Below, piece after piece: positions 1,270 through 16,404 of a stretch of DNA of 20,158 nt. Below the pieces are notes generated by a model, which saw only the letters and a list, made by a program, of their open reading frames with translations, did not search any database and had not been told where the DNA came from. The DNA is from a virus. The DNA is taken from positions 1 through 20,158 of IMG/VR virus record IMGVR_UViG_3300009604_003017. One strand, given 5' to 3'. The first letter of the stretch is position 1. Every line of letters begins with the position of its first letter. The translations under genes and the position numbers were made by a program.

Positions 1270-3264
1270 TTAGTAGATATCTTTTACGCCGTCCACAAAC
1301 CAGTTTGGTCCCGAATATGGGTTTTCATCCTGTTTTGCTTTATAGGTCTTTCCTTTCACGGCAAACCCTCCATAAAAGTTATACTCTTGCTCTGAGGGCA
1401 TTCTTTGAAGGACTCTAGCGGACATGTTAGCCATAAGAAGTGCAGAGTATCGATCCTTACGCATCTTACGCTTCCTACCGGCGCCCACAATAACTTCTGG
1501 AGTATCCCACCTGTCTCTGCCGCTTGGGGTTTGGGTCATTGATATCATAGACAACTCATCTTTAAGTTCCTCAATATCCATAACGCATTCTTCCAAGGTG
1601 TCAAAGTGCCTATTTATAATTGAGTCTTCGGCGTGTGATAGCCCTAAGCTGACCGCATCGAAAAACGGAAAAATTAATGCCTTGTCTTCAAAATCTTTCC
1701 TTAGCCCATGATTAGCTTCGGATAACCAGTCGTATTTAGCAAATTGACACATTTCTAGAATGTGTAAGCCTCTCTCATCATCTGTGTCGGCCTCCTTGTC
1801 TTCATTTATAACAGGCCAAATAGGAATCTCGCCCTCCTGTATTTTGTCATTGTCATGCAGGGATTCCATAACTGCAATTCCGCCGCCTTGAGCATCCATG
1901 GCTATATGTATGCACGGAAACAATCTCATTAGGTCTCTAATTTTTCTGGCGCAGTACGCATAAAAATCCGTCTCTGAAGAATGCCCCTTCTTTACCTTCT
2001 CGCGGTGCTCTGATCTAGTGGTAGTCCAGCAATGAACAATTCTCCGATGACTTGGGTGGACTTCCAAGACAACTATGCTGAAATTGTCTACCTCGGAAGC
2101 GGGGTCAACGCCAAATATGTATCTCGCCTTCCGGTCTCCTAGCAGTGACGCTTCAAAAAATATCTCCTCCCCATTGTTGTCTTTGATAACGTTCTCATTG
2201 GTGATAACGCATGATTCGATTAGAGACCTCTTAAAGAATCCTTGGGAGTCTCTAGTAAAACACGCCCCAAACTCCATTTGATAAATCCCCGTGTGAACAG
2301 TCGCTTTGGAGCGAGCCACCTGAGCAGCATCCATGAAGCCCGGAGGAAGAATTTCATAAGGTATGCGTATAATTGAATATTGCTTCCAGTCAAAGTCCTC
2401 TGGCGGATCTTCTCCACCAAAAACTTCTCTAAGCTTAGAGCGGCGTCCCCCGCTTTTAATAATAGATTTCCACTTCTTCCAATATTCAGAAAAGTGATTA
2501 AAATCGTAATAGGCCGTACCAGAAATAATAATCTGATTATCCTTACTTTCAGAAATATAGCTCGATTCTTCCTCTACCTCCACGCCAAGTTCAAACGCTT
2601 TCTTTCTTGCTGCCACCCTTTTTACATTATCTATCGGATCAGCCGTAACAGCAGCAAATCCGGCTACCACTGTTTCAAAGATGTCTCTAGGTATAGAAGC
2701 AAATTCGTCACTAATAATATCATTTGCTCGTTGTCCACGAATTTTTTGTCCGTCGCCAAGGGGCAGACATGTAACAGTACTTTCATTTAGTCTCATCACG
2801 CATCGATCTACGTCTCTACGAGGTCCGCTAGTACTGCCACATATATCCCTTAATATTGGAGCATTTCTCCATATTGTCTCCATATATTCAAATAAGATCT
2901 TTGACTGTCTAAACGCAGCGCCGACGACGACTACTTTCCTTCTAGGTAATAATAAAGCTCTTAAAATGGCGTATAGAGAAAGCACGAATGACTTTCCAAA
3001 GCCACGACTAGCTATAAGGATAGGAAATTTTCTGTTCCACATCTCATACATCATCAACGCCTGAGAGGGCAACAGTTGAATATTTAGGATGTGCTTACAT
3101 AGGAAAGAAAAATATTCTGGCTGCGTCATAAGCCAAGCTAGCTTAAGATGGTAATCTTCTTCACGGGGCTTGAGAATAAGGGTCGGATTAAATATGTTCT
3201 TGTCTGGGATATCTAATCCTAGCCACGCATCATCTATCTTCTTTAAGCTAACTTGCTCTGTCAT
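1270..3264 (-). CDS. terL: Terminase large subunit (packaging ATPase and nuclease)
   Basis: This 664-aa protein powers packaging of phage DNA into proheads and cuts the concatemer. The N-terminal ATPase half shows a Walker A motif ASRGFGKS at residues 85-92, a Walker B motif DIISDEF at 182-188 with the catalytic acidic pair D186/E187, and a coupling motif IIISGT at 245-250. The C-terminal half looks like the RNase H-fold nuclease, with candidate metal-binding aspartates D387 (FGVDPAS), D457 (AMDAQG) and D604 (RKDRYSALL). The length is normal for the family. The portal gene follows after 59 bases and the dioxygenase gene precedes it by 19 bases. A GGA element sits just upstream of the ATG. I see no damage. 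No obvious small terminase gene lies next to it; the HTH/coiled-coil gene at 17071-17856 is a distant candidate. Confidence 0.95.
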   Translation of the reverse strand: MTEQVSLKKIDDAWLGLDIPDKNIFNPTLILKPREEDYHLKLAWLMTQPEYFSFLCKHILNIQLLPSQALMMYEMWNRKFPILIASRGFGKSFVLSLYAILRALLLPRRKVVVVGAAFRQSKILFEYMETIWRNAPILRDICGSTSGPRRDVDRCVMRLNESTVTCLPLGDGQKIRGQRANDIISDEFASIPRDIFETVVAGFAAVTADPIDNVKRVAARKKAFELGVEVEEESSYISESKDNQIIISGTAYYDFNHFSEYWKKWKSIIKSGGRRSKLREVFGGEDPPEDFDWKQYSIIRIPYEILPPGFMDAAQVARSKATVHTGIYQMEFGACFTRDSQGFFKRSLIESCVITNENVIKDNNGEEIFFEASLLGDRKARYIFGVDPASEVDNFSIVVLEVHPSHRRIVHCWTTTRSEHREKVKKGHSSETDFYAYCARKIRDLMRLFPCIHIAMDAQGGGIAVMESLHDNDKIQEGEIPIWPVINEDKEADTDDERGLHILEMCQFAKYDWLSEANHGLRKDFEDKALIFPFFDAVSLGLSHAEDSIINRHFDTLEECVMDIEELKDELSMISMTQTPSGRDRWDTPEVIVGAGRKRKMRKDRYSALLMANMSARVLQRMPSEQEYNFYGGFAVKGKTYKAKQDENPYSGPNWFVDGVKDIY

Positions 3265-3283: not shown

Positions 3284-3961
3284 CTATTTACCACAATGGA
3301 GCCTAACGACCAGTCTTTCTTTGCCTTCTGCTACACACCCCCCTTTATGAAAGGTGTTTGTATCAAATACAACTAGTGTCCCTGCTGATGCTTCAACTGG
3401 TTCTGCGGGATACTCTGTAAAGAGGGTTGGATAATCTATTTCTATCCTGTTTTTTACTTTATCATAGCTATTAGTATTATTCCACGCCTCTTGTCTCAGC
3501 GATTTGCCCTGTTGTCTTGAACCTACAGAACAGCTAAACGCTCCGCAGCTTTCATCTATGTCTGTTAGGTATATGAAGAACTTTAAGCACCAGTCTCTAT
3601 CAAAATGTAGCCATCCGTTTCTAGCTAGTTCTCCTGTAAATTTGTAATCATGTGTAGCATAAACATTCTTGCCGTAACCTCTAGCGTTGCCAGAATATTG
3701 TTCATGCAGTTTTCTCATCCAGTCTTCATTGTATACATGTGAGATTATGCTGTCGTCAGGAAAGGTACGCAACGCATCACCCCTGTAATTGCGGCCAAAT
3801 TCATAATGGCTCGCTTTGCTTTGACATTTGCCCAGTATATCGTCATGTAACTCTTGTAAAATGTCGCCGGATAGGTAGCGCTCAATTGTGAACACTCCGT
3901 CTGACACTAGCGTGTCATGCATATGAGATATTGTATCTCTTATTGTAAGTGTTTTTATCAT
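3284..3961 (-). CDS. PhyH-type 2-oxoglutarate/Fe(II) dioxygenase
   Basis: A 225-aa protein with the iron-binding facial triad of the phytanoyl-CoA dioxygenase superfamily: H119-F-D121 in WLHFDRDW, and distal H205 in DTNTFHKGG. R216 or R220 follows and would bind the 2-oxoglutarate carboxylate. The segment between them (LKFFIYLTDID..CGAF) matches the usual core strands, and AGTLVVFDTNTFH is the typical second-motif context. The family hydroxylates small molecules, lipids, sugars or peptides using O2 and 2-oxoglutarate. The substrate cannot be read from the sequence. It is the last gene of the sugar cassette, 10 bases downstream of the AroE-like gene, so hydroxylation or desaturation of a sugar or glycan precursor is a reasonable inference. 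Modification of a protein or nucleotide is possible too. Confidence 0.85.
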   Translation of the reverse strand: MIKTLTIRDTISHMHDTLVSDGVFTIERYLSGDILQELHDDILGKCQSKASHYEFGRNYRGDALRTFPDDSIISHVYNEDWMRKLHEQYSGNARGYGKNVYATHDYKFTGELARNGWLHFDRDWCLKFFIYLTDIDESCGAFSCSVGSRQQGKSLRQEAWNNTNSYDKVKNRIEIDYPTLFTEYPAEPVEASAGTLVVFDTNTFHKGGCVAEGKERLVVRLHCGK

Positions 3962-3971
3962 TTCGTTATCC

Positions 3972-4625
3972 CTATACCCCTATGGGAAACTCTAGGCCGG
4001 TATACAGCTTGAATTGATGTGACGCTTGCATGTTGGCTAGCTGTTTACCTGTGGCTGTTTGCACTATACAATCAATTATAGTATTATTATCGCTCACTAT
4101 AGATTTCAAATTTTCAACAGGTGTGCAGTTGTATACTACGCCATTATCTATATTATCTAATTGCTCCCAATTTTTTCTAGTAATATTGACATAGTGGATA
4201 TTAAGATCTTCTGCTGCCGCTTTAACTGCCGCTGCATATCCCCCGTTTCCTATGATATAAAAATTATCATGGTTCTGAAAGTCTTTAAGGTAATCTAGAG
4301 CAGCCAAATAGTCTGTGTTGTATGCTTTTAATTTGTTGTTTTCATTTATGACTGTGTTTGCCGCTCCTATCCGACCACCGTCCCAGATCTCATCAACATA
4401 CTCTAATACCTCTTGTTTAAACGGCATAGTTACCGCAAAGCCCTTTACGTCCAGTGTCTTCACAGATTTTATAGCATCCTCTATGCTGTCCACGGAAAAC
4501 GATTTGTAGATCTTGTTTAAGCCGTAGTAATAAAATGCGGTGTTCATCATTTGGCAACCGGTATTACCAGCAGTCTTGGCAAATGAACAATATACCTCTG
4601 TATCTTTATTGATCCACAAGTTCAT
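3972..4625 (-). CDS. Shikimate-dehydrogenase-like (AroE family) oxidoreductase, short form
   Basis: This 217-aa protein carries the AroE signature set in order: VTMPFK with the catalytic-type lysine K70, IGAANTV with N90, YNTD with D105, and a dinucleotide-binding glycine motif IIGNGGYAAAVKAA at about 124-137. Shikimate dehydrogenases reduce 3-dehydroshikimate with NADPH. This protein is shorter than the usual 260-280 residues, mostly at the C-terminus. The N-terminal substrate clamp that normally reads SxS followed by SP is degenerate here (SFAKTAGNTG). I infer a related substrate, for example a quinate-like or keto-sugar compound, rather than a housekeeping role. The start overlaps the upstream gene by 20 bases and has an AGGGAT ribosome-binding site. 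Neighbouring sugar genes support a biosynthetic role. Confidence 0.8.
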   Translation of the reverse strand: MNLWINKDTEVYCSFAKTAGNTGCQMMNTAFYYYGLNKIYKSFSVDSIEDAIKSVKTLDVKGFAVTMPFKQEVLEYVDEIWDGGRIGAANTVINENNKLKAYNTDYLAALDYLKDFQNHDNFYIIGNGGYAAAVKAAAEDLNIHYVNITRKNWEQLDNIDNGVVYNCTPVENLKSIVSDNNTIIDCIVQTATGKQLANMQASHQFKLYTGLEFPIGV

Positions 4626-5562
4626 TTAAATCCCTTAGTTTGTTTTTTATAACCCCATTGATTTTATCGTCTATGTCCAGTTTAATGAGTAAAAACTCAT
4701 CATCAGAAAGAACATAATGGCCACACACCTTTATCAATTCTTTCTTGTTGTCTTCGGGAACAAAATCCTCGTCAACCCATTTTCTCCATCTGTTTGAATG
4801 ATAACAAATTTGATAAAAATCTTCTATGTCATCACCCATTTCGTCCAAATAGCACAATGTTTCAAGCTGGCCCAATTCAGGGGCTATGTTTATTGCGTCA
4901 AGGCCCAAGTCAAACCTAGCTTTATATTCGTTGTTGGATAAGTAGTCTCCGTTGTGTTCTTTGCTCTTCTTGCCAAATTTTTTACACACCGCGATCATTT
5001 GTTCTAAATCGTTTGAATTGAAAGCTCCGGTATTAATTCTCTTGCCCAAATTCAACCCAACTCCAGATTGTATGGTTACGTATTCTATCGCGTCAAACAT
5101 TTCTGGTAACAACTTTGACTCTAAATCTGATAAAAATGTACTTAATGATGCAGCACTAAACTTTCTTATGGCCTCTTCTGTACCAACTTCAAATCTGATA
5201 TGTCTATTGGTGTAATAGCAAAATGCTATATTGCTTATACATTCTCTAAGTCCTTCATGATATCCAGAATATTTGACCCAAGGGTCTATGTGGATTATCT
5301 CTACATTTTCGCAGTCTGCTTTTAGGGACTCGTATCCGTCATCATCCATATAGCCCTGACTCGCCCCCGCGTGGTCTCTTTCAATTGTAACTCGTCCATT
5401 TACATACTTAGCAAACGTTTCAGTGGTCCAGTTGTTGACATATCCACCACTATAATCAACCTGTCTTCTCGAAGGAATGAAGCCAAACACATCGCCAAAA
5501 TCTATAACTGCATCGGTTATATTTAGAGACATCGGCCCTATAAAATATTTGATATTATTCAT
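4606..5562 (-). CDS. GatZ/KbaZ-like tagatose-bisphosphate-aldolase-family TIM-barrel protein
   Basis: I chose the ATG at 5560-5562 (318 aa) over an upstream in-frame ATG at 5610. It has an AAGGA Shine-Dalgarno just before it and leaves an 8-base overlap with the preceding gene. The protein aligns by eye with the GatZ/KbaZ family: SRRQVDYSGGYVNNWT with FAKYV (GatZ: SNQVN..GGYTGMT), ERDHAG (GatZ: GGDHLG), IHIDPW (GatZ: IHLDAS), FEVGTEE (GatZ: VIGTEV), TIQSGVGL (GatZ: VVQPGVEF), EHNGDYLS (GatZ: AHSTDYQT) and NIAPELG (GatZ: KVGPALT). GatZ/KbaZ proteins assist class II tagatose-1,6-bisphosphate aldolase, whose catalytic partner GatY/KbaY is not in the window. The protein may act alone as an aldolase or epimerase on a sugar phosphate. 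It sits between the nucleotidyltransferase-kinase fusion and the AroE-like gene. Confidence 0.7.
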   Translation of the reverse strand: MNNIKYFIGPMSLNITDAVIDFGDVFGFIPSRRQVDYSGGYVNNWTTETFAKYVNGRVTIERDHAGASQGYMDDDGYESLKADCENVEIIHIDPWVKYSGYHEGLRECISNIAFCYYTNRHIRFEVGTEEAIRKFSAASLSTFLSDLESKLLPEMFDAIEYVTIQSGVGLNLGKRINTGAFNSNDLEQMIAVCKKFGKKSKEHNGDYLSNNEYKARFDLGLDAINIAPELGQLETLCYLDEMGDDIEDFYQICYHSNRWRKWVDEDFVPEDNKKELIKVCGHYVLSDDEFLLIKLDIDDKINGVIKNKLRDLNELVDQ

Positions 5563-7456
5563 GGTCCTTTTGCAACATCTGATGTGACTTGAAAAATAAC
5601 AAATCTCCAAGCTCTCTCTCGTGGAGGGGAGACATGTTTAAAAATATAAGGGAGGTAATCGTCTTGATTTTTTCTAAATCGTATCCGTTGTCTACAATCC
5701 ATTGTTCGTACACCAACTTAAACTCATCCAGCTTAGGGTTAGATTTATAATTGTAAGTTACTATTTCTTTGTTAACATAGCAAGAAAAATTGTTACTATC
5801 TTTCATTGAGGAATAAGACATTAAGATTCCGCCATACATTTTTGCTAAGTCGTAATACACATCTCCAACGACCTGTCCCGCGAAATCTTGTCTCCAGTCT
5901 AATAGATAAAATCTACCGCAATCTGTGTGAATTACATTGTCAAATTGTAAATCTCCATGAAACATTTCTGTTGGTAGGCCCTTGCTCAGACGGCTCCATT
6001 TAAAATCATGCAATAAATCTTTAATGGAACTTGTTTTCACTCCGTTAACGATATGGCTGTTTAAATATGACTCCCCCCTTTCCGACAAGAACAATTTTAG
6101 TCTATCTAGAGTTTTATCCTTGTAGAATAATAAACAATCCTTTCTAATATCCTTATCAATCGGTTGCCACATATTATTCTTCATAAAAGATAGGAACTTT
6201 TTCCAAATATCGATATCATTGCAATCATATAAAGTGTTTCCTTCTAGCCACTTGTATGAAAACAAGTTGTTCCCGCAATAAACCACATCCGGGGCCAGCC
6301 CCCTTAACTTTTTGGCTCTCTCTACTCGCCCACTAATGAATTTGTCGTCTGAAGACAGTTTGATGAAATTGTTATCAACTCTGTAAAGAAATTCTCCGCT
6401 ATTTTTAGGGATGCTATACCTCACATTATCGTCGAATGTTTTTTGGGCATGCAAATAATTTTCTACCGTTCCGATGTCATACCAATCAAACATGTGGCCT
6501 TTCAGTGTTGAATATTTATCAGTGTTGTAGTAAGCGCTAACAACCTCCACGCCCTCCAATTCCTCCCAAAAGGTTTTGTAGTCATAAACTCCGGCCAACC
6601 CAATGAATGCATAATCATATCCATCTTCAGACTTATCTTTAAAATCAGTTATGTCTCCATTTTTGACATTTGCGGTGGAATATCTACTTGGAATACTCGT
6701 GGGGTAAAGGCCGAGCCAATCATAATCTACAGGAGGAAGGTCGTTTATAATAACTACATCTGCCGCCGCCCAAATAAATGGTCTCTGTAAATGTCTTTCG
6801 GCCTGTTTAATTGAATACCCCGGACCAGTTCCCTCCCCCTCATATTTGTCAACCGTGACAAAGGTAAAGTTTCTGTCTGGATGGGCCGCATCGCAATACT
6901 CTTTAACCATGTCTCCCCTATGCCCTAATACTATAATGATATCATGGTCTTTTGAAGTTTTATCAATGAGGTGAGAAATAATGGCCTTATTATTTAATGG
7001 TAACAGGCCCTTGTTTATGTGGTTTGAAAAGTCGGCCAATCTATTGCCGATTCCCGCTGCTAATATACACAACGCTGGTTTCGTGTGCTCGTGATCTATT
7101 CTACCAGAGCTACGAAAAGAATCATCTGAAATCCTAATCACGTCATCAACTTCGGGTGTGGAAGCTTCTTGTAAAATCACATCAGTTATTGCTATAATCC
7201 TATGTTTTCTTGGCGGTACAACAGTAAAGAATTCGCCAGCCTTCATTACTGTCTTTTCTACTACGCCTTCGTCGTTTTCTAACCAAACTTCAGCTGTGCC
7301 TTCAATTATATAGTTTGTTTCTAGCTTTTGCTCATGGTATTGGTAGCTTGTTTTTTTTCCAGCGTTAATATGCAGCCTCTTATAACAATACCGGTGGTTC
7401 AATTCTAGCCAAAGCTCTTTCCCCCAAGGCTTGTATACTGTTTTACAGTTCGACAT
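5555..7456 (-). CDS. Three-domain fusion: cupin (type II phosphomannose isomerase-like) + sugar nucleotidyltransferase + APH/choline-kinase-like kinase
   Basis: The likely start is the ATG at 7454-7456, preceded by GGGAG; an in-frame ATG at 7471 has poorer spacing. Numbering here counts from 7471. Residues about 10-120 form a cupin like the C-terminal part of ManC (YKPWGKELW, Y-x-Y-H, IIEGTAEVW, EVDDVIRISDD). Residues about 133-345 form a nucleotidyltransferase with LAAGIGNRL (137-145) and K154 in NKGLLPL. Residues about 360-638 form an aminoglycoside/choline-kinase-fold phosphotransferase with the Brenner motif HGDLQFDN (505-512) and DWR (525-527). Together they could isomerise or sense, phosphorylate and nucleotide-activate a sugar or small alcohol for a surface glycan. 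The substrate is unknown. It overlaps the HAD gene by 14 bases and the GatZ-like gene by 8. The frame is intact throughout. Confidence 0.85.
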   Translation of the reverse strand: MSNCKTVYKPWGKELWLELNHRYCYKRLHINAGKKTSYQYHEQKLETNYIIEGTAEVWLENDEGVVEKTVMKAGEFFTVVPPRKHRIIAITDVILQEASTPEVDDVIRISDDSFRSSGRIDHEHTKPALCILAAGIGNRLADFSNHINKGLLPLNNKAIISHLIDKTSKDHDIIIVLGHRGDMVKEYCDAAHPDRNFTFVTVDKYEGEGTGPGYSIKQAERHLQRPFIWAAADVVIINDLPPVDYDWLGLYPTSIPSRYSTANVKNGDITDFKDKSEDGYDYAFIGLAGVYDYKTFWEELEGVEVVSAYYNTDKYSTLKGHMFDWYDIGTVENYLHAQKTFDDNVRYSIPKNSGEFLYRVDNNFIKLSSDDKFISGRVERAKKLRGLAPDVVYCGNNLFSYKWLEGNTLYDCNDIDIWKKFLSFMKNNMWQPIDKDIRKDCLLFYKDKTLDRLKLFLSERGESYLNSHIVNGVKTSSIKDLLHDFKWSRLSKGLPTEMFHGDLQFDNVIHTDCGRFYLLDWRQDFAGQVVGDVYYDLAKMYGGILMSYSSMKDSNNFSCYVNKEIVTYNYKSNPKLDEFKLVYEQWIVDNGYDLEKIKTITSLIFLNMSPLHERELGDLLFFKSHQMLQKDHE

Positions 7457-7802
7457 TCTCAACTCCCGCATTCCTGTCTAGATTTATTGAATACACAGTA
7501 TCTCTACTGCTGTCAGGCTTTCTGTCATTTATCAAAACCCTATCTCCACCACCAATTCCCATCACTAGCTTATCATAAAATATACCTGTTTTTTGCAACT
7601 GTGCTTCTGTTTGTCTTCTACAGGATTCTCTTCTGCCGGTCACCAAGATGATATTATATCCCTTTCTATCCCATTCAATTAATTTTTCTCGCGCCCCTTT
7701 CAATAAGATAGGCTCTTTGCTTATTTGTTTATGAAGGTCTCCGTGGTGATGCAAAAGGGTTCCATCAATATCACAAAAAATTGTTTTCATGGTCTTACTC
7801 AT
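7443..7802 (-). CDS. Small HAD-superfamily phosphatase
   Basis: A 119-aa protein with the HAD nucleophile motif DIDGTLL (D11, D13), motif II threonine in LVTGRR (about 53-58), and a terminal INDRKP segment resembling the motif III/IV acidic loop. There is little room for a cap domain, as in small cap-less (C0) HADs that act on sugar phosphates. It lies inside the sugar cassette between a putative glycosyltransferase and the nucleotidyltransferase-kinase fusion. It could dephosphorylate the ulosonate-8-phosphate made by the KdsA-like enzyme (a KdsC-like job) or another sugar phosphate, but the sequence does not decide this. The start at 7802 lies one base after the upstream stop; an alternative ATG at 7790 is four codons in. 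Neither start has a strong ribosome-binding site. Confidence 0.8.
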   Translation of the reverse strand: MSKTMKTIFCDIDGTLLHHHGDLHKQISKEPILLKGAREKLIEWDRKGYNIILVTGRRESCRRQTEAQLQKTGIFYDKLVMGIGGGDRVLINDRKPDSSRDTVYSINLDRNAGVENVEL

Positions 7803-7803
7803 C

Positions 7804-8589
7804 TTATCTAAAAAGTTGGTACTTCCAGTTAGGCGTTATCAATGCGCCTTTTCCTAAAACTTTTTCAATATGCTCACGGCAAGCAAACGTAGGTCTGATT
7901 GAGTAGCTATGAATATTATCATAGAGAGCGCCAAATTGATCCATTATGTGACTATCTCCTACAAACCAGTAATCGAATAAGGTGTAATCAATATCTATTC
8001 TACCAGTTCTTTTACTAGCATAGATTTTATCCTTTTCGAGTTTTTCGAAAGGCAGAGGTGTCAAAAATTTATTGTCGAATCTATTCAATAAAACAAAATC
8101 ATATCTAAATCCTTGCTCGTCTTCGTACTGTTTTTTTAATTCAAGGGTGCGCTTAGTGGACCACCATCTACTTTTTGTTCTAAATGCCAGTAGTGCCAAT
8201 TCCTTCAAAATATTATCCACCGTTTGTCTAGATGGTAACAACCCTTCATACCCAAACCTTGTGGATTCACTAATGTCCCATTTAGATATATCGCCTCCCT
8301 TTATTCCATATTCTTCTAAGTCTACTTCAAAGTTTGCTTGAGGAAGTATTTCGTGTTTGCGGGGTTTATAATGGTCTATAATCTCTTTTTCCTTATTTGT
8401 GGACCAACTATGAACAAATACCTCTGCTTCGTATTTATCTATGATATTTTTTAAGTTTCTATAGGTCGGCAATATATCCTTATTTGCTATATTTGATTCG
8501 TGAATTAATTCTTCACAAGTTCTAGCGGGTCTCGCGCTGGCACAATTGTTATGGCCCACATTACCATATAGACAAATGGCGATTTTCAT
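7804..8589 (-). CDS. Putative glycosyltransferase-like protein of the sugar cassette
   Basis: The start is the ATG at 8587-8589, which overlaps the upstream stop as ATGA (4 bases). An in-frame ATG at 8631 is less likely because it would run 46 bases into the upstream gene. The 261-aa protein begins MKIAICLYGNVG, a short hydrophobic strand with glycines. Later it shows TYRNLKNIIDKY..VFVHSW and DFVLLNRFDNKF. This pattern (an N-terminal strand, a DVFVHSW-like segment and an R-F-D motif) recalls glycan-biosynthesis proteins of viruses and bacteria that are predicted glycosyltransferases. I cannot place it in a named GT family and see no classical DxD beyond RFDN and the IDID segment. Its position among sugar-activating and modifying enzymes is the main support. 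Confidence 0.5.
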   Translation of the reverse strand: MKIAICLYGNVGHNNCASARPARTCEELIHESNIANKDILPTYRNLKNIIDKYEAEVFVHSWSTNKEKEIIDHYKPRKHEILPQANFEVDLEEYGIKGGDISKWDISESTRFGYEGLLPSRQTVDNILKELALLAFRTKSRWWSTKRTLELKKQYEDEQGFRYDFVLLNRFDNKFLTPLPFEKLEKDKIYASKRTGRIDIDYTLFDYWFVGDSHIMDQFGALYDNIHSYSIRPTFACREHIEKVLGKGALITPNWKYQLFR

Positions 8590-9179
8590 TGAACTACCCC
8601 ATACATCCTTGGGCCACAAGGAAACAACCACCCAGTAGACTGAACATCCATGACAACTTCATCACAGAACTCTTTAAAGGCCTGTGTTTCGCCCCCAATA
8701 GTATGTTCGTCTACTACTACCAGCGCCCCTTTGGACAAATATTTTCCACAGGCGCGAAGCGCTTCTATTGCTGGTAGGTATGCATTACAATCAATATACA
8801 TCATGGATATTTTATGAGCTTTGCCAACCGTGTCTAAATATTGGTGTATTGTCTTTTTAATATCTCCGACAACTATTTGGCAATAATCCTCTAGTCCCTT
8901 TTTGGTTATTGTGTCAGCTACTAATGTTTTAGATATATTCCATCTTTTACTTCGTTGGTTTCTTAGTACTCCTTCATTGGCACCTACAAGATCCTCTTCA
9001 CAATGGCCATCAAAGGTATCAAAGCCTATGTACTGTTTTTCGGAGTTGCTCTCTTGCAGAAAGTGCCCGATGATAAATGTATTGTTTCCCTTATGCACTC
9101 CTAGCTCTATTATGTCTCCATTAATATTTTGGATTCTATTGAGAAGACTGTTGATATTTTGTGCTAAAACCTTCTGCAT
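8586..9179 (-). CDS. TylF/macrocin-O-methyltransferase-like SAM-dependent methyltransferase
   Basis: A 197-aa protein with a SAM-binding motif IIELGVHKGNNT (23-34), a second motif YIGFDTFDGHCEED (50-63), YIDCNAY (128-134) and a following strand VVVDEH (154-159). These match the TylF family of metal-dependent sugar O-methyltransferases, where the acidic residues of the later motifs bind Mg2+ and position the sugar hydroxyl. The family methylates hydroxyls in antibiotics and surface glycans. Here it would methylate a sugar made by the cassette; the substrate is unknown. It starts 44 bases inside the end of the CMP-sugar synthetase gene, with AAGGGA 8 bases before the ATG, which supports this start. 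The stop is coupled to the downstream gene by ATGA. Confidence 0.8.
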   Translation of the reverse strand: MQKVLAQNINSLLNRIQNINGDIIELGVHKGNNTFIIGHFLQESNSEKQYIGFDTFDGHCEEDLVGANEGVLRNQRSKRWNISKTLVADTITKKGLEDYCQIVVGDIKKTIHQYLDTVGKAHKISMMYIDCNAYLPAIEALRACGKYLSKGALVVVDEHTIGGETQAFKEFCDEVVMDVQSTGWLFPCGPRMYGVVQ

Positions 9180-9816
9180 ATTTTATGTCCCTTAGCGTGT
9201 TAATGTCTATAGATCTTTCTGGAGGAATAATGACACCCCTTACATTGCCCTTAAAGAAGTTTCTATGCTCTAGCAGGGAACCCCACTGCCCCATATAAAA
9301 CGCTCCAGAAGGCTTGTAATACTTCTTTATGAACTTGCTGTTTGTGAGTCCGCATTCAAGGTTGTCAAAAATGGGTAGCACATTGTCCCCGCTCATCACA
9401 CATGCTAATTGGATAGTTTCTGGTATTTGTGTCATGCTTATTACAGAGTCTGCGTGTGGGAGTAAGCTGATGCCCTTGCGTATATCTTCAACACCCACAA
9501 AGGGGCACGTAGGTAAAAAGTAAGAGAACGTATCGCAATCGTCAACCTCGTCCATTAAGTCCATCATAGCATCCAGAACCGTTGCTTGCACTGTAGCGTG
9601 GTGCGCAGGGCGGTTGTGCCTAACAACGCCCAAGTCAGACACGGCATCAAAAATTCTGTCGTCATCAGTAGATACTAAAATATGATTAAAGCGCTCAGAA
9701 GCAACAACAGATTCGGTAATCCACCTTATCAGTGGCTTGCCAGCCAAGGGGTAGATATTTTTATCTTTGAGTCTAGTTGATCCACCCCTAGCTGGTATTA
9801 CCGCCAAGCTTTTCAT
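9136..9816 (-). CDS. CMP-sugar synthetase (NeuA/acylneuraminate cytidylyltransferase family)
   Basis: A 226-aa protein starting MKSLAVIPARGGSTRLKDKN, the P-loop-like signature of CMP-N-acetylneuraminate synthetases. Further motifs are STDDD (49-53), LPTCPF (101-106, usually LQPTSP) and SIDINTLRD (202-210), whose aspartates D204 and D210 are the expected metal ligands. The enzyme transfers CMP from CTP to the anomeric hydroxyl of a ulosonic or nonulosonic acid. The motif resembles NeuA/PseF/LegF more than KdsB, yet its partner in the cassette is a KDO-8-phosphate synthase, so the true sugar could be KDO, a KDO derivative or a nonulosonate. The ATG overlaps the upstream stop by 4 bases. Confidence 0.88.
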   Translation of the reverse strand: MKSLAVIPARGGSTRLKDKNIYPLAGKPLIRWITESVVASERFNHILVSTDDDRIFDAVSDLGVVRHNRPAHHATVQATVLDAMMDLMDEVDDCDTFSYFLPTCPFVGVEDIRKGISLLPHADSVISMTQIPETIQLACVMSGDNVLPIFDNLECGLTNSKFIKKYYKPSGAFYMGQWGSLLEHRNFFKGNVRGVIIPPERSIDINTLRDIKYAEGFSTKYQQSSQ

Positions 9817-9995
9817 AGTATTTTACGTAGCCTCTCGTTTATTTTGGTAGCAGACTCTACGAAGACAAATGGCAAGAAGGCGTGAACGAAACAAAGTACA
9901 CCCCCCATAATCATGTTAATACTAACATAAATTGCCTTTCTAAAGTGTGTAAAATATGATACATTGTTTTTTTCAAGATGTTTAAGATCAATCAT
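9813..9995 (-). CDS. Small DUF6356-like membrane protein
   Basis: A 60-aa protein with the pattern DLKHLEKNNVSYFTHFRKA followed by one long hydrophobic stretch (about residues 21-48) containing CFVHAFLPFVF and then ESATKI. I recognise this as the DUF6356 family, short membrane proteins often found in or near surface-polysaccharide clusters; their biochemical role is unknown. It lies between kdsA and the CMP-sugar synthetase, overlapping them by 8 and 4 bases, so it is translationally coupled to both. A strong GGGGGGAT-type ribosome-binding site precedes the ATG. It may anchor or regulate the CMP-sugar enzymes at the inner membrane, but that is inference. Confidence 0.75.
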   Translation of the reverse strand: MIDLKHLEKNNVSYFTHFRKAIYVSINMIMGGVLCFVHAFLPFVFVESATKINERLRKIL

Positions 9996-10764
9996 AGATC
10001 CCCCCTACCGTTTTTGCTTTTTGAATTAAGGATTTAAGATCGTCCAAATGAATCAGACATTGACCGTCAGACACTGAATCGCTTGGTCTCGGATGTGTTT
10101 CTGCAAACACTCCATCGTAGTTAAATAAATCGGCAGCAACAAAGTATCTTCCGGCAAGCACCGGATCTCCCTGTGTGCCATGTACTGCTCTGGACCTTTG
10201 TGTTGAATGTGTACAGTCTAAGATCACTCGGTCATAATATTTTTTCAGTTCATCAACAATCCCAAAGTTGACAAACAGGTCGTGATACCCAAAGTTGGAA
10301 CCTCTGTCACATACCCAAGCTTCACAGGACGGGTTGGTTTCTTTTACCTTGTCTACTGAAACAAGCAGGTTGTTTGGTCCTAGCCACTGACCCTTCTTAA
10401 TATTGACTATTGGAAAATGTTTGGCAGACTCAACAATTAAATCAGTTTGTCTTGACAAAAATGCAGGAATTTGTATCACATCAATCAATCCTGCTAGCTG
10501 TTCTGCTTGCCAGCATTCATGAATATCGGTAGTAAAGCGTACATTGGGATATAGTTCTTTGGCTTCTGCCCAAACTTCTTTTGCGTATTCTAGTCCGGGT
10601 CCGCGACCACCCTGTAGGGATGTTCTATTGGCTTTATCAAAGCTGGCCTTCATGTACCAGTTGTCATCCTTGTCCATGATGGAGTTAATTGCCCCCAAGC
10701 ATTCCAAAAATAGGTCTTTGCTCTCAAGGGAGCACGGTCCCAAAATCCATACCTTATCTCTCAT
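9988..10764 (-). CDS. kdsA: 3-deoxy-D-manno-octulosonate-8-phosphate synthase, metal-dependent type
   Basis: This 258-aa protein is a clear KdsA homologue: GPCSLES (9-15), KASFDKANRTS (39-49), GGRGPG, TDIHE (79-83), QIPAFLSRQTDL (98-109), NIKKGQWL (121-128), DRGSNFGYHDL (153-163), LDCTHSTQ (182-189) and AETHPRP (221-227). It condenses phosphoenolpyruvate with arabinose-5-phosphate to give KDO-8-phosphate in the cytoplasm. Residue C11 in the GPC motif, with H186, E222 and D233, matches the metal site of metal-requiring enzymes such as that of Aquifex; E. coli-type enzymes have Asn instead of Cys. The length is close to the family norm. It overlaps the aldolase gene by 11 bases and has an AGGGAT ribosome-binding site. 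A DAHP-like or other ulosonate specificity is possible but less likely. Confidence 0.93.
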   Translation of the reverse strand: MRDKVWILGPCSLESKDLFLECLGAINSIMDKDDNWYMKASFDKANRTSLQGGRGPGLEYAKEVWAEAKELYPNVRFTTDIHECWQAEQLAGLIDVIQIPAFLSRQTDLIVESAKHFPIVNIKKGQWLGPNNLLVSVDKVKETNPSCEAWVCDRGSNFGYHDLFVNFGIVDELKKYYDRVILDCTHSTQRSRAVHGTQGDPVLAGRYFVAADLFNYDGVFAETHPRPSDSVSDGQCLIHLDDLKSLIQKAKTVGGIYD

Positions 10765-11635
10765 TTTTAATATCCCTGATCACTTCGGAAATTTGATTTA
10801 TGCACTGGTCATCGCAGTTGGGCCAAGGGTTTCTATCGTTAAGGCATGTTAGGTTTAGTATCTTTAACGATGCTCGTAGAGACTTGTGCCACCCATTAGC
10901 CATGAAGACATCAAAGAGTCTAGCCTCTGTTTGTAAATGTTTCATTTTGTCGTGACCAGCCAGAAATTCGTTTTCTATGTCTGGAAATAGATTGCCAACC
11001 CCAGCAAGTAAAGAATTTGCGCCTGCCGACTCCAAGAATGCAAGCCTTCTCATGCTTCCGCCTGCCACGATAACGTCGAGATTGGGGTTTAGGTGTCGGA
11101 CAAAGTTGTAAGAAGCTTGCAGGTTGGGGTGTTCTTCTTTTATACCCGCCACATACCCCAAATCGTACAGCCTATTTATAATATCACAATCATAGTTCCA
11201 GTCTCCAGATATGCCAGACCTCATTTTTTGAGTATGCAAATACACGCTATCGCCAGCCGCTTCGCAAATACGTTGCAGATAATCAACGACTACATCTTCA
11301 CCGTAAAATCTATCTGGATACAGCGCCATAAGCTTAGCATCTTTTCCTAGGTAGCTCCTTGAGGCGTGGACAAAATCACAAGCCTCTGTCGTGCTAGCTG
11401 GTGGAATGCCTAATATTTTTGCACCCTCAAAGGATTCAGATATACAGGCGTTAAGATCTATTATCTCTTCGGTTGCTAGAAGGTTAAACTGAGAAGTTCC
11501 AGCAGTAGTCATGACACACTGGGCGCCATGGGTTTTTAAATACTTCAAATATACGACAGTTGATTCTAGCTCAAGGCGTTCCTCTTTGTCATAGGACGGG
11601 GGAATGGCTACAATGGATCGCGGCGTAGGAGTCAT
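10754..11635 (-). CDS. DapA/NanA-family Schiff-base aldolase
   Basis: This 293-aa protein has the (beta/alpha)8 aldolase signatures of the dihydrodipicolinate synthase/N-acetylneuraminate lyase family: TTAGTSQFNLLATEE (43-57, usually GTTGE..L..eE), LYPDRFYGEDV (105-115, aligned with the usual YYP region), YLHTQK with candidate catalytic Tyr132, and the Schiff-base lysine K166 in VAGIKEEH. Family members add pyruvate to an aldehyde or reverse this. Adjacent kdsA and a CMP-sugar synthetase suggest pyruvate-dependent making or breaking of a ulosonic acid, rather than lysine synthesis. The start TAATG overlaps the upstream stop by one base. The active-site glycine-threonine motif is slightly divergent, so substrate assignment is open. 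Confidence 0.85.
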   Translation of the reverse strand: MTPTPRSIVAIPPSYDKEERLELESTVVYLKYLKTHGAQCVMTTAGTSQFNLLATEEIIDLNACISESFEGAKILGIPPASTTEACDFVHASRSYLGKDAKLMALYPDRFYGEDVVVDYLQRICEAAGDSVYLHTQKMRSGISGDWNYDCDIINRLYDLGYVAGIKEEHPNLQASYNFVRHLNPNLDVIVAGGSMRRLAFLESAGANSLLAGVGNLFPDIENEFLAGHDKMKHLQTEARLFDVFMANGWHKSLRASLKILNLTCLNDRNPWPNCDDQCINQISEVIRDIKNER

Positions 11636-12297
11636 TATTCAATGAACCTCTTGATTATGTTTAAACTGGTGATGGTTGGGGTCAAGAGAGAGGAGTCAAT
11701 TTCCATACTGGTAGTATCTTTAATAGCACAAAATGTTGCATCAACCAAGTCAGCGCTATGTAGTTTCTTTATTAAATCAATCTCTGATGCTACATCGTGA
11801 TGGTATCCAGTGCCATCTTTACGTGTGTATTGCTTGTTTAACTGGTCACGTTTTTGTAAGGAGAGGCCAATCAGGAACGGCTTGATTCCTTTGTGCATGC
11901 AATCAGCCATATACGCAAAACCGCACCTGACACACTTTGTTATTTTATGGTTAATCCCGTGCTTTCTCAAGATAGACTTCATTAGTTCGGTATTGTTACC
12001 AGCAAAGTTCTGGAAAATTACATTGTCTTTCTTTAGGTGTTCATAAAAAGCATCTATATGATCTTCTGGAATCCCGAATTCCTTATGGTAGTTAGGTCTC
12101 CACTTAAGGGGCGGTAAATTTTTAGTATAGTTCTCGTAGATATGACCGTTTAATATCTGACGAGTTGCGTCCCTCTTTCCGTAGTTGTTGTCAGGCAGCA
12201 GCATGTTGTGGCGTACAATGACATCAAAGCTATCTACCAGCTTGTTGAAATTGGCATGTTCGTACCTTCTGGAGCCACATATGATATAACTATCCAT
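11635..12297 (-). CDS. Sialyltransferase-like glycosyltransferase (GT29/GT42-like)
   Basis: The 220-aa protein begins with a nucleotide-binding strand (SYIICGSRRYE), followed by DSFDVIVRHN (22-31), the counterpart of the sialyl-motif phrase in which a fold residue recognises CMP. Later it has VRCGFAYMADCMHKGIKPFLIGLSL (residues about 123-147; compare SGVYMCAVAIALGYKEIYLSGID in the Campylobacter GT42 enzyme), and H167-x4-E172 in HHDVASE, the H-x4-E motif of sialyltransferases. Such enzymes move a sialic or KDO-type sugar from CMP-sugar to a glycan. A CMP-sugar synthetase lies two genes downstream of the adjoining aldolase and kdsA genes, which fits. Similarity is by motif and is weak, so the acceptor and the exact GT family are unknown. 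It overlaps the upstream 57-aa gene by 8 bases. Confidence 0.6.
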   Translation of the reverse strand: MDSYIICGSRRYEHANFNKLVDSFDVIVRHNMLLPDNNYGKRDATRQILNGHIYENYTKNLPPLKWRPNYHKEFGIPEDHIDAFYEHLKKDNVIFQNFAGNNTELMKSILRKHGINHKITKCVRCGFAYMADCMHKGIKPFLIGLSLQKRDQLNKQYTRKDGTGYHHDVASEIDLIKKLHSADLVDATFCAIKDTTSMEIDSSLLTPTITSLNIIKRFIE

Positions 12298-12463
12298 TTA
12301 TATCCCGCTCTTTTTCTTCCGCTTCTTCTTCGCTATCAAACGGACCCCACAGTTGACCGCCATAAAAATAGTACCACCCACGACCATCATACCCAGTAGT
12401 ACCATACTCAGGATAGCTACGGCCTTCAAAAGCCGGGTCCATTCGATAATATTCTACAGTCAT
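12290..12463 (-). CDS. Small aromatic-rich protein, 57 aa
   Basis: An intact 57-codon reading frame between the ClpP and sialyltransferase-like genes. It starts with an ATG overlapping the ClpP stop (ATGA, 4 bases) and ends 8 bases inside the next gene, exactly the coupling style of its neighbours. The protein is rich in Tyr, Gly and Trp, with the phrase WYYFYGGQLWGPF, and ends in an acidic tail (DSEEEAEEKE). The phrase resembles short phage proteins with a YYYGGxLxGPF core. I do not know a function; binding of a ligand or a protein partner by the aromatic core is possible. The overlap pattern makes it a real gene. Confidence 0.75.
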   Translation of the reverse strand: MTVEYYRMDPAFEGRSYPEYGTTGYDGRGWYYFYGGQLWGPFDSEEEAEEKERDING

Positions 12464-13110
12464 TTTAATTTTAGTCTATCTATTGAGCCATACTTTTTAC
12501 TAGTGATCACACCATCCGCAAAACCGTGATACACCGCTTCATGTGGCGACAGATACCAATCACCGCACTGTAGCTTTCGACGTAAAAACGTCCTCACCTT
12601 ATCACAAGTCAGAGCTTTATATCGCTCATTGAAAAATTTGCCTTCGACACATCTCTCTGCATAGATATCTAGCATCGTGTCTGCTCTAGATTTTTCAAAA
12701 GTAGCTAGCTTTTGGGCGTTCACGTAATCTCCACCACAATCGATGCTGCCATAATGTAGCATCAAGTAAGTGTGAGGCATCATAATTCTTACATCAGCGG
12801 CCTGTAACACCACGCTACTCATTGATTCGGCTTGTCCGTAAGTCAAAATAGTTACATCAGATTTGCATAACTGGATGGCGTCATAGATTGCCATCCCATC
12901 CCCCCACTCGCCACCAATGCTGTGCATGTGAACCAGTATAGGAAGATTACTGACAGAGTCCAGAAATCTAAGGTTCTTAATAAACGTGGTAGCCATCCGG
13001 TATTCTACTCCGGGGTCTTCTTCAAAATGGCCATGATGGCCGTGCAAAAATATCTCTCGCCGCTTTGTGTCTAGATTATAAGAATGAATATCGCCCACTT
13101 GGTCAAGCAT
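12460..13110 (-). CDS. clpP: ClpP-type serine protease
   Basis: A 216-aa protein of the ClpP fold. The catalytic triad looks complete: S96 in GQAESMSSVV (E. coli ClpP GQAASMGA), H119 in YLMLHYGS, and D183 in CGDWYLSPHEAVYHGFADG (E. coli ERDRFLSAPEAVEYGLVD). The glycine strand HSIGGEWGDGMAIYD (63-77) matches the oxyanion region NSPGG. Host ClpP works with ClpX/A ATPases. In phages, ClpP-fold proteins can be prohead maturation proteases or host modulators. Position next to nuclease genes rather than the capsid gene does not settle which. No unfoldase is seen here. The stop overlaps the following small gene as ATGA. Confidence 0.88.
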   Translation of the reverse strand: MLDQVGDIHSYNLDTKRREIFLHGHHGHFEEDPGVEYRMATTFIKNLRFLDSVSNLPILVHMHSIGGEWGDGMAIYDAIQLCKSDVTILTYGQAESMSSVVLQAADVRIMMPHTYLMLHYGSIDCGGDYVNAQKLATFEKSRADTMLDIYAERCVEGKFFNERYKALTCDKVRTFLRRKLQCGDWYLSPHEAVYHGFADGVITSKKYGSIDRLKLK

Positions 13111-13875: not shown

Positions 13876-14120
13876 TCGGCCATAACCTTGATGATCTTAA
13901 CATCGTGCTTGATTTCTCTACACAGAAGTCTTGTTTGTATTGAATCATCGTGATCTAGTATGATCTTGATTAGTTTATATATCGCTCTAAAACAGGCGTC
14001 GTCAGGACTTTTTGCTTCAATAAATACAATGGGAGTGGTAGAGTTAAACTCTTTAAGAGCAAACTTTTTTAGCCTGTTAATGACTAACGTCAAATCAAGA
14101 TAAACCTTGTATAGTTTCAT
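13872..14120 (-). CDS. Unknown small protein, 82 aa
   Basis: I do not recognise this protein. It has a mixed-charge, strand-helix composition: KVYLDLTLVINRLKKFALKEF, then PIVFIEAKSPDDACFRAIYKLIKIIL, then REIKHDVKIIKV. Segments such as IVFIEAKSPDDACFRA resemble short phage proteins of the helper type found beside nucleases. The start lies 26 bases inside the end of the gmd gene, without a clear Shine-Dalgarno, and the stop overlaps the HNH start by 4 bases. The start coupling to gmd and the codon structure between two real genes support it. Confidence 0.65.
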   Translation of the reverse strand: MKLYKVYLDLTLVINRLKKFALKEFNSTTPIVFIEAKSPDDACFRAIYKLIKIILDHDDSIQTRLLCREIKHDVKIIKVMAE

Positions 14121-15195
14121 CTAGGTCGTGTTCCATCATAATGTGAATAAGATCTTCTAGCCCATGCGTTGGCTCCCACCCTAGTTTTGTTCTAGCCTTA
14201 GAATAATCGCCCCTGAGATAATCCACCTCTGCCGGTCTGTAAAACTCTGGGTCGATAGTAACAAAGCGGTCCCAATTTTCTATTCCCACGCAACCAAATG
14301 CGTAATTTAACAGGTCTTTAATGGTATGTGTCTCCCCTGTGCAAACGACATAATCATCCGACTCATCCTGTTGCAGCATTAGCCACATGGCTATTACATA
14401 GTCTTCAGCATAGCCCCAGTCCCGATGTGCCTCCAGATTCCCTAAACGCAGCTTTGGAAATCTTGAATACGCCACCTGATCCGATTTTCTTTCAGGAATA
14501 TAAACCTCGTCATCGCCAACCGCTAACTGTTCCGGGCTAATGTCAAGCTGCTCGCACCAAGATATAAACTGGCCTATCCACTTGGTGATTTTTCTAGTTA
14601 CGAAGTTCTCTCCTCTTCGTGGGCCTTCGTGATTAAACAAGATACCAGTACTAGCGTGTAGCCCATAAGCTTCTCTGAATAATCTCGTGGCATAATGCGC
14701 GGCGCACTTGGCTATCGCGTAAGGCGACTGTGGTAGAAACTTTGTCTCTTCGTCTTGGTATTTTGATCCGTCTCTAGGATCAATATCATAAGAACCTCCA
14801 AACATCTCGCTTGAAGACGCTTGATAGAATCTGCATCCGAACATGTCTAGATCCACAATGCTCTGAAGTATATTAAAGCATCCCTTGCCTGTAATATCCC
14901 AAGTTAGTCCCGGCTGCTTAAAAGAGACACCCACATGCGACTGCGCAGCTAGGTTATAGACTTCATCTACGTCCTCGTTATCCTTTAAGATACTTATCAC
15001 GCTATGCACATCTGTTATGTCTCCTTGGACCAGATGGAAGTGGGGGCATCCGAGTCGATCCTTTATTCTTTGTGTAGTATCTACACTGCATCGCCTCGCA
15101 ACTCCAGTTACATCATAGCCCTTGGAGAGCAACAAATCTGTCAGATGGCTTCCATCCTGTCCCGTTACTCCAAAAATGATTGCTTTCCCGTGCAT
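14095..15195 (-). CDS. gmd: GDP-mannose 4,6-dehydratase
   Basis: A 366-aa short-chain dehydrogenase-family enzyme converting GDP-mannose to GDP-4-dehydro-6-deoxymannose, the precursor of GDP-fucose, GDP-rhamnose and perosamine. It shows the Rossmann motif GVTGQDGSHL (9-18), NLAAQSHVGVSF (81-92), the ASSSEMFG stretch (126-133) with catalytic-type Ser/Glu, and the Y159-x3-K163 pair in SPYAIAK. FNHEGPRRGENFVTRKI (about 187-203) is strongly diagnostic of Gmd. A strong AGGAGG site lies 6 bases before the ATG, overlapping the stop of the upstream membrane-protein gene. No downstream Fcl/WcaG reductase is seen, so the product would need host enzymes or be a 6-deoxy sugar made by another gene. It is separated from the main sugar cassette by nuclease and protease genes. 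Confidence 0.93.
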   Translation of the reverse strand: MHGKAIIFGVTGQDGSHLTDLLLSKGYDVTGVARRCSVDTTQRIKDRLGCPHFHLVQGDITDVHSVISILKDNEDVDEVYNLAAQSHVGVSFKQPGLTWDITGKGCFNILQSIVDLDMFGCRFYQASSSEMFGGSYDIDPRDGSKYQDEETKFLPQSPYAIAKCAAHYATRLFREAYGLHASTGILFNHEGPRRGENFVTRKITKWIGQFISWCEQLDISPEQLAVGDDEVYIPERKSDQVAYSRFPKLRLGNLEAHRDWGYAEDYVIAMWLMLQQDESDDYVVCTGETHTIKDLLNYAFGCVGIENWDRFVTIDPEFYRPAEVDYLRGDYSKARTKLGWEPTHGLEDLIHIMMEHDLDETIQGLS

Positions 15196-15196
15196 G

Positions 15197-15802
15197 TTAT
15201 CCTCCTACTTTCTCTGGTAACCTAGGTGGTGGCAACTGATGGAAACTGATTCCCCCGTTTCTTGTGAGGCTTCCGCCACCCTTCCCTTTAGCGCTGTCCC
15301 CTTTCCCGCTCTTGGCCGCTCCTTTTTCCGCTTTTCCTTTCCCCTTCTTTCCGCTCTTTCCTCTTTCTCCTCCTACCTGTTCTCCTCTCTTAATCATCTC
15401 TATAGCTCTCTGCGATTGTTCGTGCAGACCCCTAGAGTAATCTAGACGATACGCTCTAGGTCTTGACTTTCCGTCATAGAAAGATAGCAGATAGTCTTCC
15501 CATGATTCGTGTTTCTCTACAGTCTTGGATAGGGGCTTTGTCCAGATATATACAGCCCCCTCGCTCCCTGTCTTCTTGTCGGGTTCGCTGACCACTACCC
15601 AGTGTACTAGAAACTTCTCTGGTAGGATTTCCTCGGTGGGCCAGCCCATGAAATCTTTAACAGAAAAACCTACGGATAAACAGAAATATAATGAGAACAT
15701 GATCATAAGAGCCTTACTGAGCCAGTGCCCCTTAGACCCTATAATAAACCACAGAATCAATACCGCTATAATAACAAACCCTAAACCTAAAGAAAAATTC
15801 AT
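15197..15802 (-). CDS. Membrane protein with Gly/Lys-rich tail, unknown function
   Basis: A 201-aa protein with two predicted transmembrane helices (about residues 4-22 and 29-48), a folded middle region (FSVKDFMGWPTEEILPEKF, VHWVVV, AVYIWTKP, RAYRLDYSR), and a C-terminal low-complexity tail from about residue 146 with repeated Gly-Lys and Ala-Lys-Gly patterns. No named family comes to mind. It directly follows the ExbD-like gene with an ATGA overlap, so I infer it belongs to the same membrane complex as the ExbB/ExbD-like pair, perhaps as an effector or anchor. The basic tail could bind nucleic acid or anionic polymer, or be a flexible linker. It is followed by gmd after one base. Confidence 0.75.
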   Translation of the reverse strand: MNFSLGLGFVIIAVLILWFIIGSKGHWLSKALMIMFSLYFCLSVGFSVKDFMGWPTEEILPEKFLVHWVVVSEPDKKTGSEGAVYIWTKPLSKTVEKHESWEDYLLSFYDGKSRPRAYRLDYSRGLHEQSQRAIEMIKRGEQVGGERGKSGKKGKGKAEKGAAKSGKGDSAKGKGGGSLTRNGGISFHQLPPPRLPEKVGG

Positions 15803-16404
15803 AAGCCTACAGCCTCTTTCTTTACAAGAGATAGGGGAAGCTGATTTACTTCCGTCACTTTCCCGTCCTTGTCTAAAACAAATCTAAAAGCAGTCTTCTC
15901 GTCTCCGCTATCCCCCAGTATAACCTTTTTGATTACTACTGTCTTAAAGGAAGGGTTGATTTTATCCAGTTGTATTGTGACCTCTGTAATAGCTTTCTCG
16001 TCCCGTCTCTTATACATGTGAACGTTGACTATATATTCTCCCCGATTAAATCCTCTCAGGGTAACAATTTCCTTATTCTCCTTATGTTCTACAGGTCCGA
16101 ATGGAGTCTGTACGATATCATTTATTTTACCTAGGTCGTCACGATCAAGGTGCATAAGCCCTTCCTCGCGCCTCATAAAAGCTACTAGGTTGCCCTGTGG
16201 GTCTCTAACATACGTATCTACATCATTGTCCAGATCTTTAGCCCACGTCACAGTGATAATGTAATCCGCCTTAGATTTAACGTTGTTTTTATTCTTGCTA
16301 GGATTGATGAGGATAAAAGATAAGATAAACAGCGCTGCGAAACATAGCAGCGTGTTGAATAGAAGGTCTAGGAAGGCCAAGCTAGTATGATAGTTACGTT
16401 TCAT
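15799..16404 (-). CDS. ExbD/TolR-like membrane protein with periplasmic DVD-type domain
   Basis: A 201-aa protein with one N-terminal transmembrane helix (about residues 9-33) carrying a single aspartate D13 in SLAFLDLLFNT. A membrane Asp in this position is the proton-carrying residue of ExbD, TolR and MotB. After the helix is an extracytoplasmic domain with strands YIITVTW, DVDTYVRDPQGN (61-72) and an acidic turn HLDRDDLG (85-92), a pattern like the DUF2135/YfaP-type domain DVDLxVxDPxG. It is immediately preceded by an ExbB/TolQ-like gene (4-base overlap), giving the ExbB-ExbD order of proton-driven membrane motors. There is no OmpA peptidoglycan-binding domain, which argues against MotB or ZorB. 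Its function in a phage is unknown; energised transport, membrane disruption or lysis control are possible. Confidence 0.7.
   Translation of the reverse strand: MKRNYHTSLAFLDLLFNTLLCFAALFILSFILINPSKNKNNVKSKADYIITVTWAKDLDNDVDTYVRDPQGNLVAFMRREEGLMHLDRDDLGKINDIVQTPFGPVEHKENKEIVTLRGFNRGEYIVNVHMYKRRDEKAITEVTIQLDKINPSFKTVVIKKVILGDSGDEKTAFRFVLDKDGKVTEVNQLPLSLVKKEAVGL

Follow-up and report, generated by a model that had tools for sequence, protein, structure and literature searches.

A candidate CMP-ulosonate pathway carried by phages, in a cassette at the ClpP/terL junction of an uncultured tailed phage

The closest described relatives of the locus reported here are the pathway that makes 3-deoxy-D-manno-octulosonic acid (KDO, or Kdo) and activates it with cytidine monophosphate (CMP), whose kdsA and kdsB genes belong to the glycan genes commonly reported from viruses of the ocean surface (PMC10653327), and the GT29 sialyltransferases, including the plant enzyme RCKT1, a probable Kdo transferase; plant bioassays are still required on the role of GT29 in Kdo transfer (PMC12168206). 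We analyzed a 20,158-base fragment of a virus, IMG/VR record IMGVR_UViG_3300009604_003017 (the window), from an uncultured tailed-phage lineage. It carries a cassette (12297-3284, minus strand) with genes for a KdsA-like synthase, a DapA-like protein, a NeuA-type CMP transferase, a GT29-like glycosyltransferase and a PhyH dioxygenase, among others. We think it probable that this cassette is a phage-borne, horizontally shared pathway for making, activating and attaching a KDO-like 3-deoxy-ulosonic acid to a glycan or a protein. Viral kdsA and kdsB genes are already known; no paper on this variant gene set, or on a phage GT29 or KdsA cassette of this kind, was found in the literature searched, which was mostly without subscription journals.

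A core gene set in phages and a few bacteria

Viral KdsA relatives fall into two sets, one about 47-77% identical to the window protein (L002-L026, and L043-L072 retrieved through DapA) and one of canonical KdsA at 34-39% identity (L027-L040). Across 31 non-redundant viral loci with a KdsA-like gene, a CMP transferase is present in 29, the DapA-like gene in 26, the GT29-like gene in 22, PhyH in 19 and a small HAD phosphatase in 17. By contrast, DapA, GT29 and PhyH partners are all absent from the 14 viral loci of canonical KdsA, a few of which have short CMP transferase matches. A previous reading of the window from its sequence only had pointed to the unusual association of a condensing enzyme, an activating enzyme and a transferase in one phage; the association holds, and is broader than that reading could see. 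In nearly all complete loci the DapA-like gene lies at most 45 bases from the KdsA-like gene (about 2 kb in L010 and L070), and it occurs without the latter only in two loci that end at a contig or locus edge. Contigs with the core module reach up to 459 kb and most have no match to the window's terminase; only two of the 28 cassette-bearing contigs searched (G007 and G027) match its TerL, at 50-52%. Although many of the contigs are incomplete, several phage lineages clearly share the core module; its genes are found together in many environmental phages unrelated to one another, but only very few bacteria have them.

Outside viruses, the DapA-like gene was found only in one Fibrobacterota metagenome-assembled genome (MAG) and two Cyanobacteriota genomes, each time adjacent to a CMP transferase. 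Profile searches detected it in 1 of 168 Fibrobacterota, in 2 of 292 members of the phylum to which G037, a Melainabacteria/Cyanobacteriota genome, belongs, and in none of 399 Pseudomonadota; two other phyla were likewise negative (0 of 46 and 0 of 294). It is absent from the INPHARED phages. A pattern scan of 84,980 species was empty, yet it failed to pick up a genuine relative, the Chitinivibrionales MAG L154, in which a KdsC-type HAD, a KdsA-like gene, a CMP transferase, a DapA-like gene, TylF and a second CMP transferase (52% identical to the window's) stand together. We had considered the DapA-like family strictly viral, and dropped this idea when L154 and the two cyanobacterial genomes surfaced. 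A Myxococcota MAG, L155, has a KdsA-like gene without partners. In the two cyanobacterial loci the DapA-like gene sits beside a NeuA-type CMP transferase, and TylF and a NeuB synthase lie nearby (its CBS-NeuB-SAF domains were verified for one locus), while KdsA is absent. The DapA-like gene thus accompanies CMP-ulosonate pathways with either type of synthase, and this favors a reaction on the ulosonate itself; its pairing with NeuB weakens the alternative, in which it would supply an aldehyde to KdsA specifically.

The cassette is an insertion of about 9 kb at an otherwise fixed site, since the ClpP and terL genes abut, with no room for a gene, in the 74 related loci having both. In a 135.8-kb relative of the same TerL lineage, a DapA-KdsA pair lies roughly 75 kb from terL; therefore, the module has moved. 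Could the cassette be random host DNA, or a chimeric assembly, devoid of phage function? The guanine-cytosine (GC) content of its second module (0.37-0.39) is below that of the flanks, and cassettes vary in content and position between phages, as such an origin would allow. However, the frames are intact and overlapping, and contigs 3300009418 and 3300009605, from differently numbered metagenomes, are 100% identical to the window over 14,266 and 6,763 bases, junctions included. We therefore rejected as unlikely an artificial joining of bacterial sequence to phage genes, a risk raised by the sequence-only reading. The recurrence of the core set in 31 viral loci, against its great rarity in bacteria, largely refutes random acquisition, and we hold this whole explanation to be very improbable.

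Enzyme families and the candidate pathway

In an alignment of 23 viral and canonical relatives of the KdsA-like protein, the catalytic residues C11, H186, E222 and D233, already recognized from the sequence, are invariant, as are K39, K44-R47, D80, H82, R154 and others, and the KANRTS motif is retained. KdsA equivalogs are by far its best-matching profiles. A tree of 57 proteins, with a midpoint root only, separates the KdsA-like proteins from canonical KdsA across a 100/100 branch; this viral clade has long internal branches and includes the two bacterial MAG proteins, L154 and L155. The CMP transferase, rightly called NeuA-like before and of acylneuraminate/PseF type, matches PF02348 at 83.5 bits (cut-off 22.6), and its family profile retrieves NeuA (1eyr, 5.5e-52) far ahead of KdsB (3tqd, 1.8e-17) in the PDB.

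The 12297-11635 product is, by family profile and predicted fold, a GT29-like transferase. Its family profile reaches ST3Gal1 (2wnb) at 5e-23, and 14 of 21 homologues match PF00777 (L022 at 103 bits, cut-off 23). An AlphaFold (AF2) model of the window protein has a mean predicted local distance difference test score (pLDDT) of 94.3, and its 14 best PDB matches by Foldseek are all GT29 sialyltransferases; as the template modelling (TM) scores are about 0.5, the protein is a divergent member. Residues H167-x4-E172 (motif VS) are invariant in the alignment. The sequence-only reading had placed this protein near GT29 or GT42 from its H-x4-E motif: the structural comparison returned GT29 rather than an unrelated fold, while GT42 was discarded as the closest family, CstII (1ro8) ranking only fifteenth. 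The probable Kdo transferase activity of plant RCKT1 makes the proximity of GT29 and a KdsA-like synthase chemically sensible.

The DapA-like protein matches Pfam DHDPS weakly, though above the cut-off (30.5 versus 22.1 bits), and a PDB profile at 1.5e-10. Its predicted Schiff-base lysine K166, noted earlier, is indeed present and invariant, and His134 replaces the catalytic Tyr133 of dihydrodipicolinate synthase (DHDPS) in every aligned member.

Several observations weigh against the KDO-like pathway proposed here. The KdsA-like protein falls under both KdsA equivalog cut-offs (TIGR01362, 216.8 versus 314 bits; NF003543, 226.4 versus 242 bits) and the CMP transferase under that of PseF (117 versus 205.7 bits). 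The window transferase has no direct match to Pfam PF00777, and its subgroup lacks the motif III HY found in the other aligned members. The dedicated small HAD of 17 of the 31 relatives is missing from the window, as is any isomerase making arabinose-5-phosphate, an absence that the sequence-only reading had already remarked, expecting the host to supply the enzyme.

These features also bear on the identity of the sugar. We may hypothesize an ordinary CMP-KDO pathway. The KdsA-like protein would then be a diverged KDO 8-phosphate (KDO8P) synthase and the CMP transferase would act as KDO cytidylyltransferase, while the DapA-like protein would have an accessory role, for instance that of a KDO aldolase. 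The retention of KANRTS and of all KDO8P synthase catalytic residues, the dominance of KdsA equivalog profiles, and the frequency of kdsA and kdsB in ocean viruses agree with this hypothesis; the separate clade with its long internal branches, the NeuA-type rather than KdsB-type transferase, and the constant DapA-like partner, absent from canonical viral KdsA loci, do not. We regard it as possible, if somewhat improbable. Since the KdsA-like protein misses the equivalog cut-offs and forms its own clade, and since the CMP transferase is NeuA-type, the product is not necessarily KDO. A nine-carbon, sialic-like nonulosonate, with the KdsA-like protein substituting for NeuB, would fit the NeuA-type and GT29 enzymes and the cyanobacterial pairing of the DapA-like family with true NeuB. 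Yet the window has neither NeuB nor enzymes modifying N-acetylhexosamine, and the KdsA-like protein has no SAF domain and retains KANR and TDxHE, the motifs by which KDO8P synthases are recognized. Furthermore, four phages of the KdsA-like clade (L014, L015, L023 and L026) also carry a separate NeuB-like synthase beside a CMP transferase, so that the KdsA-like protein is not obviously its replacement. A nonulosonate product therefore appears unlikely.

From the families and their residues, the predicted transferase fold, the conserved linkage and the insertion site, we infer the reactions, sugar, acceptor and benefit of a KDO-like pathway as follows. The KdsA-like enzyme would condense an aldose phosphate of the host, such as arabinose-5-phosphate, with phosphoenolpyruvate (PEP), and a host or phage phosphatase would remove the phosphate. 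With Lys166 forming a Schiff base, the DapA-like protein would take the free 2-keto-3-deoxy acid as substrate, and might epimerize it at C4 by retro-aldol/aldol chemistry or dehydrate it. The NeuA-type enzyme would then make the CMP-ulosonate, from which the GT29-like enzyme would transfer the ulosonate. PhyH may hydroxylate the sugar, as the dioxygenase KdoO, a precedent for action on Kdo, turns Kdo into Ko (PMC5462993). The benefit is most likely a modification of the host surface or of the virion. We would tentatively go further and suggest, as a plausible but far from secure idea, that the KdsA-like, DapA-like, NeuA-type, GT29-like and PhyH proteins form an undescribed, mainly phage-carried CMP-ulosonate pathway, that the DapA-like step, with His for Tyr, yields a still undescribed stereoisomer or derivative of a ulosonic acid, and that the GT29 proteins are prokaryotic-virus counterparts of plant Kdo transferases.

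A second module, cassette layout and neighboring genes

We take the window cassette to be two joined modules, the far-end PhyH being assigned to the first by co-occurrence. The second (module B) comprises the HAD, the cupin/NTP-transferase/kinase fusion, U334 and mostly the AroE-like gene, which recur in L238-L243 with no core-module gene in the stretch examined; AroE is missing from the module of the single-cell virus AG-345-E15. The fusion is 63-74% identical in L238-L240, and U275 homologues adjoin module B in L239-L241. U334 has no significant match by Pfam or PDB sequence search; a moderate-confidence model (pLDDT 70) predicts a TIM barrel, with UxaE as best Foldseek match (6il9, 5.6e-6), plus class II aldolases. 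A U334 homologue at 27% identity also occurs in L247 (OR846727.1), labelled a Listeria phage from wastewater, possibly as bacterial sequence in that record.

The sequence-only reading proposed that the phage makes and transfers a CMP-ulosonic sugar. Conserved gene sets and the transferase fold give this proposal good support; its HAD and kinase-nucleotidyltransferase fusion, which are present, the latter with an additional cupin domain, look like a separate module. Because module B recurs without KdsA, the HAD, fusion and AroE-like proteins do not clearly belong to the same pathway; together with U334 they probably constitute a second activated-metabolite module. The HAD, traveling with module B, is accordingly a weakened candidate for the KdsC of the core pathway. 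TylF was correctly recognized, whereas PhyH, the AroE-like protein, U334, DUF6356 and U275 had been missed (Table 1).

All cassette frames are intact. Their junctions range from an overlap of 11-20 bases to a 19-base gap; the 4- or 8-base overlaps previously thought to couple all genes occur at four junctions only, two of which hinge on start codon choice. The CMP transferase and TylF overlap by 44 bases using the first ATG of TylF. The cassette does lie directly upstream of terL, at a gap of 19 bases.

Table 1. Genes of the cassette and its immediate flanks, in transcription order
Feature	Position	Strand	Evidence
ClpP-type head maturation protease, upstream flank	12460..13110	-	phrog_94 5e-24
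GT29-like (sialyltransferase-fold) glycosyltransferase, divergent subgroup	11635..12297	-	family profile, AF2 fold, H167-x4-E172
DapA/NanA-superfamily protein, rare subfamily	10754..11635	-	PF00701 30.5 bits; K166; His134
KdsA-like PEP-dependent ulosonate-phosphate synthase	9988..10764	-	NF003543 226 bits (cut-off 242); catalytic residues
DUF6356 small protein	9813..9995	-	PF19883 4e-15; adjoins KdsA also in L044-L046
NeuA/PseF-type CMP-ulosonate cytidylyltransferase	9136..9816	-	PF02348 2.5e-23
TylF-type methyltransferase	8586..9179	-	PF05711 8.6e-12; TylF also in L154 and cyanobacterial clusters
U275, possibly glycosyltransferase (likely start ATG 8589)	7804..8589	-	phrog_13607 4e-13
Small HAD phosphatase (module B)	7443..7802	-	co-occurs with module B in L238-L243
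Cupin + sugar nucleotidyltransferase + APH-like kinase fusion (module B)	5555..7471	-	PF01050, PF12804 above cut-off; PF01636 under it
U334, TIM-barrel aldolase/epimerase-like (module B)	4606..5562	-	Foldseek on predicted model
AroE-like oxidoreductase, shikimate dehydrogenase N-domain (module B)	3972..4625	-	PF08501 5.7e-15
PhyH Fe(II)/2-oxoglutarate dioxygenase, core partner of KdsA-like	3284..3961	-	PF05721 2.8e-9, 38 vs 22 bits cut-off; in 19/31 loci
Terminase large subunit, downstream flank	1270..3264	-	phrog_2 3e-23; at least 598 viral contigs matched

Minus-strand genes from 19154 leftward include a sigma-like factor, a D5-like regulator, a GDP-mannose 4,6-dehydratase, HNH and ERCC4 nucleases and the ClpP-type head protease, followed by the cassette, terL and the portal gene. 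The lineage marked by TerL is widespread, with contigs up to 174 kb here, and has no close isolated phage: among its IMG/VR matches the best 80 are 73-100% identical, whereas the best isolated-phage match, covering most of the TerL length, has about 25% identity. The GDP-mannose 4,6-dehydratase (14095-15195, minus strand) is retained, at 55-72% identity, in the structural block of those TerL relatives whose contigs extend there, and looks like a core sugar gene of this phage lineage. A triplet at 15197-16907 (minus strand), made of a MotA/TolQ/ExbB-like protein, weakly ZorA-like (6e-7, PADLOC), and two partner frames, is possibly a phage-encoded proton-channel complex; it is also present in L080 and L119, and beside the DapA-like gene in L070.

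Comparison with known systems

If the KDO-like pathway is real, phages maintain their own sugar-activation route with a step foreign to canonical CMP-Kdo biosynthesis, and possess members of GT29, a family so far known chiefly from eukaryotes; work on ulosonic sugars, and on what GT29 does in Kdo transfer, would gain enzymes open to testing. One global-ocean catalogue of auxiliary metabolic genes discarded contigs with lipopolysaccharide (LPS)-island genes (PMC11360552), and the window cassette shows what current catalogues of this type miss.

With the KDO8P synthase/CMP-Kdo pathway, the locus shares active-site residues, fold family and the expected PEP condensation chemistry. It differs in that the synthase stands in a clade of its own, with 34-39% identity to canonical KdsA from viruses, and that its partners are a DapA-like protein and, in the place of KdsB, a NeuA-type CMP transferase; the window has no KdsD. 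The GT29 sialyltransferases, including RCKT1 as probable Kdo transferase of rhamnogalacturonan II (RG-II), have the same fold, the H-x4-E motif and, in the relatives, a sialylmotif-L-like N-terminus; the viral proteins, however, are 189-236 amino acids long, and the window subgroup lacks both the HY motif and Pfam recognition. PF02348 and an N-terminal nucleotide motif are common to the NeuA/PseF acylneuraminate cytidylyltransferases and the window protein, which differs by its sub-cut-off PseF score and its KdsA-like partner synthase. The DHDPS/N-acetylneuraminate lyase superfamily and the DapA-like protein have in common the Schiff-base lysine, Tyr111 and Pfam DHDPS, whereas Tyr133 has become an invariant histidine and TTAGTSQF stands for the GTTGE loop. 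Finally, phage LPS and glycan islands such as those of the cyanophages P-SSM2 (an LPS cluster) and S-SCSM2R likewise combine sugar-nucleotide and KdsA/KdsB genes; in S-SCSM2R, KdsA is 34% identical to the window protein and lies beside KdsB, with no other partner from the window cassette.

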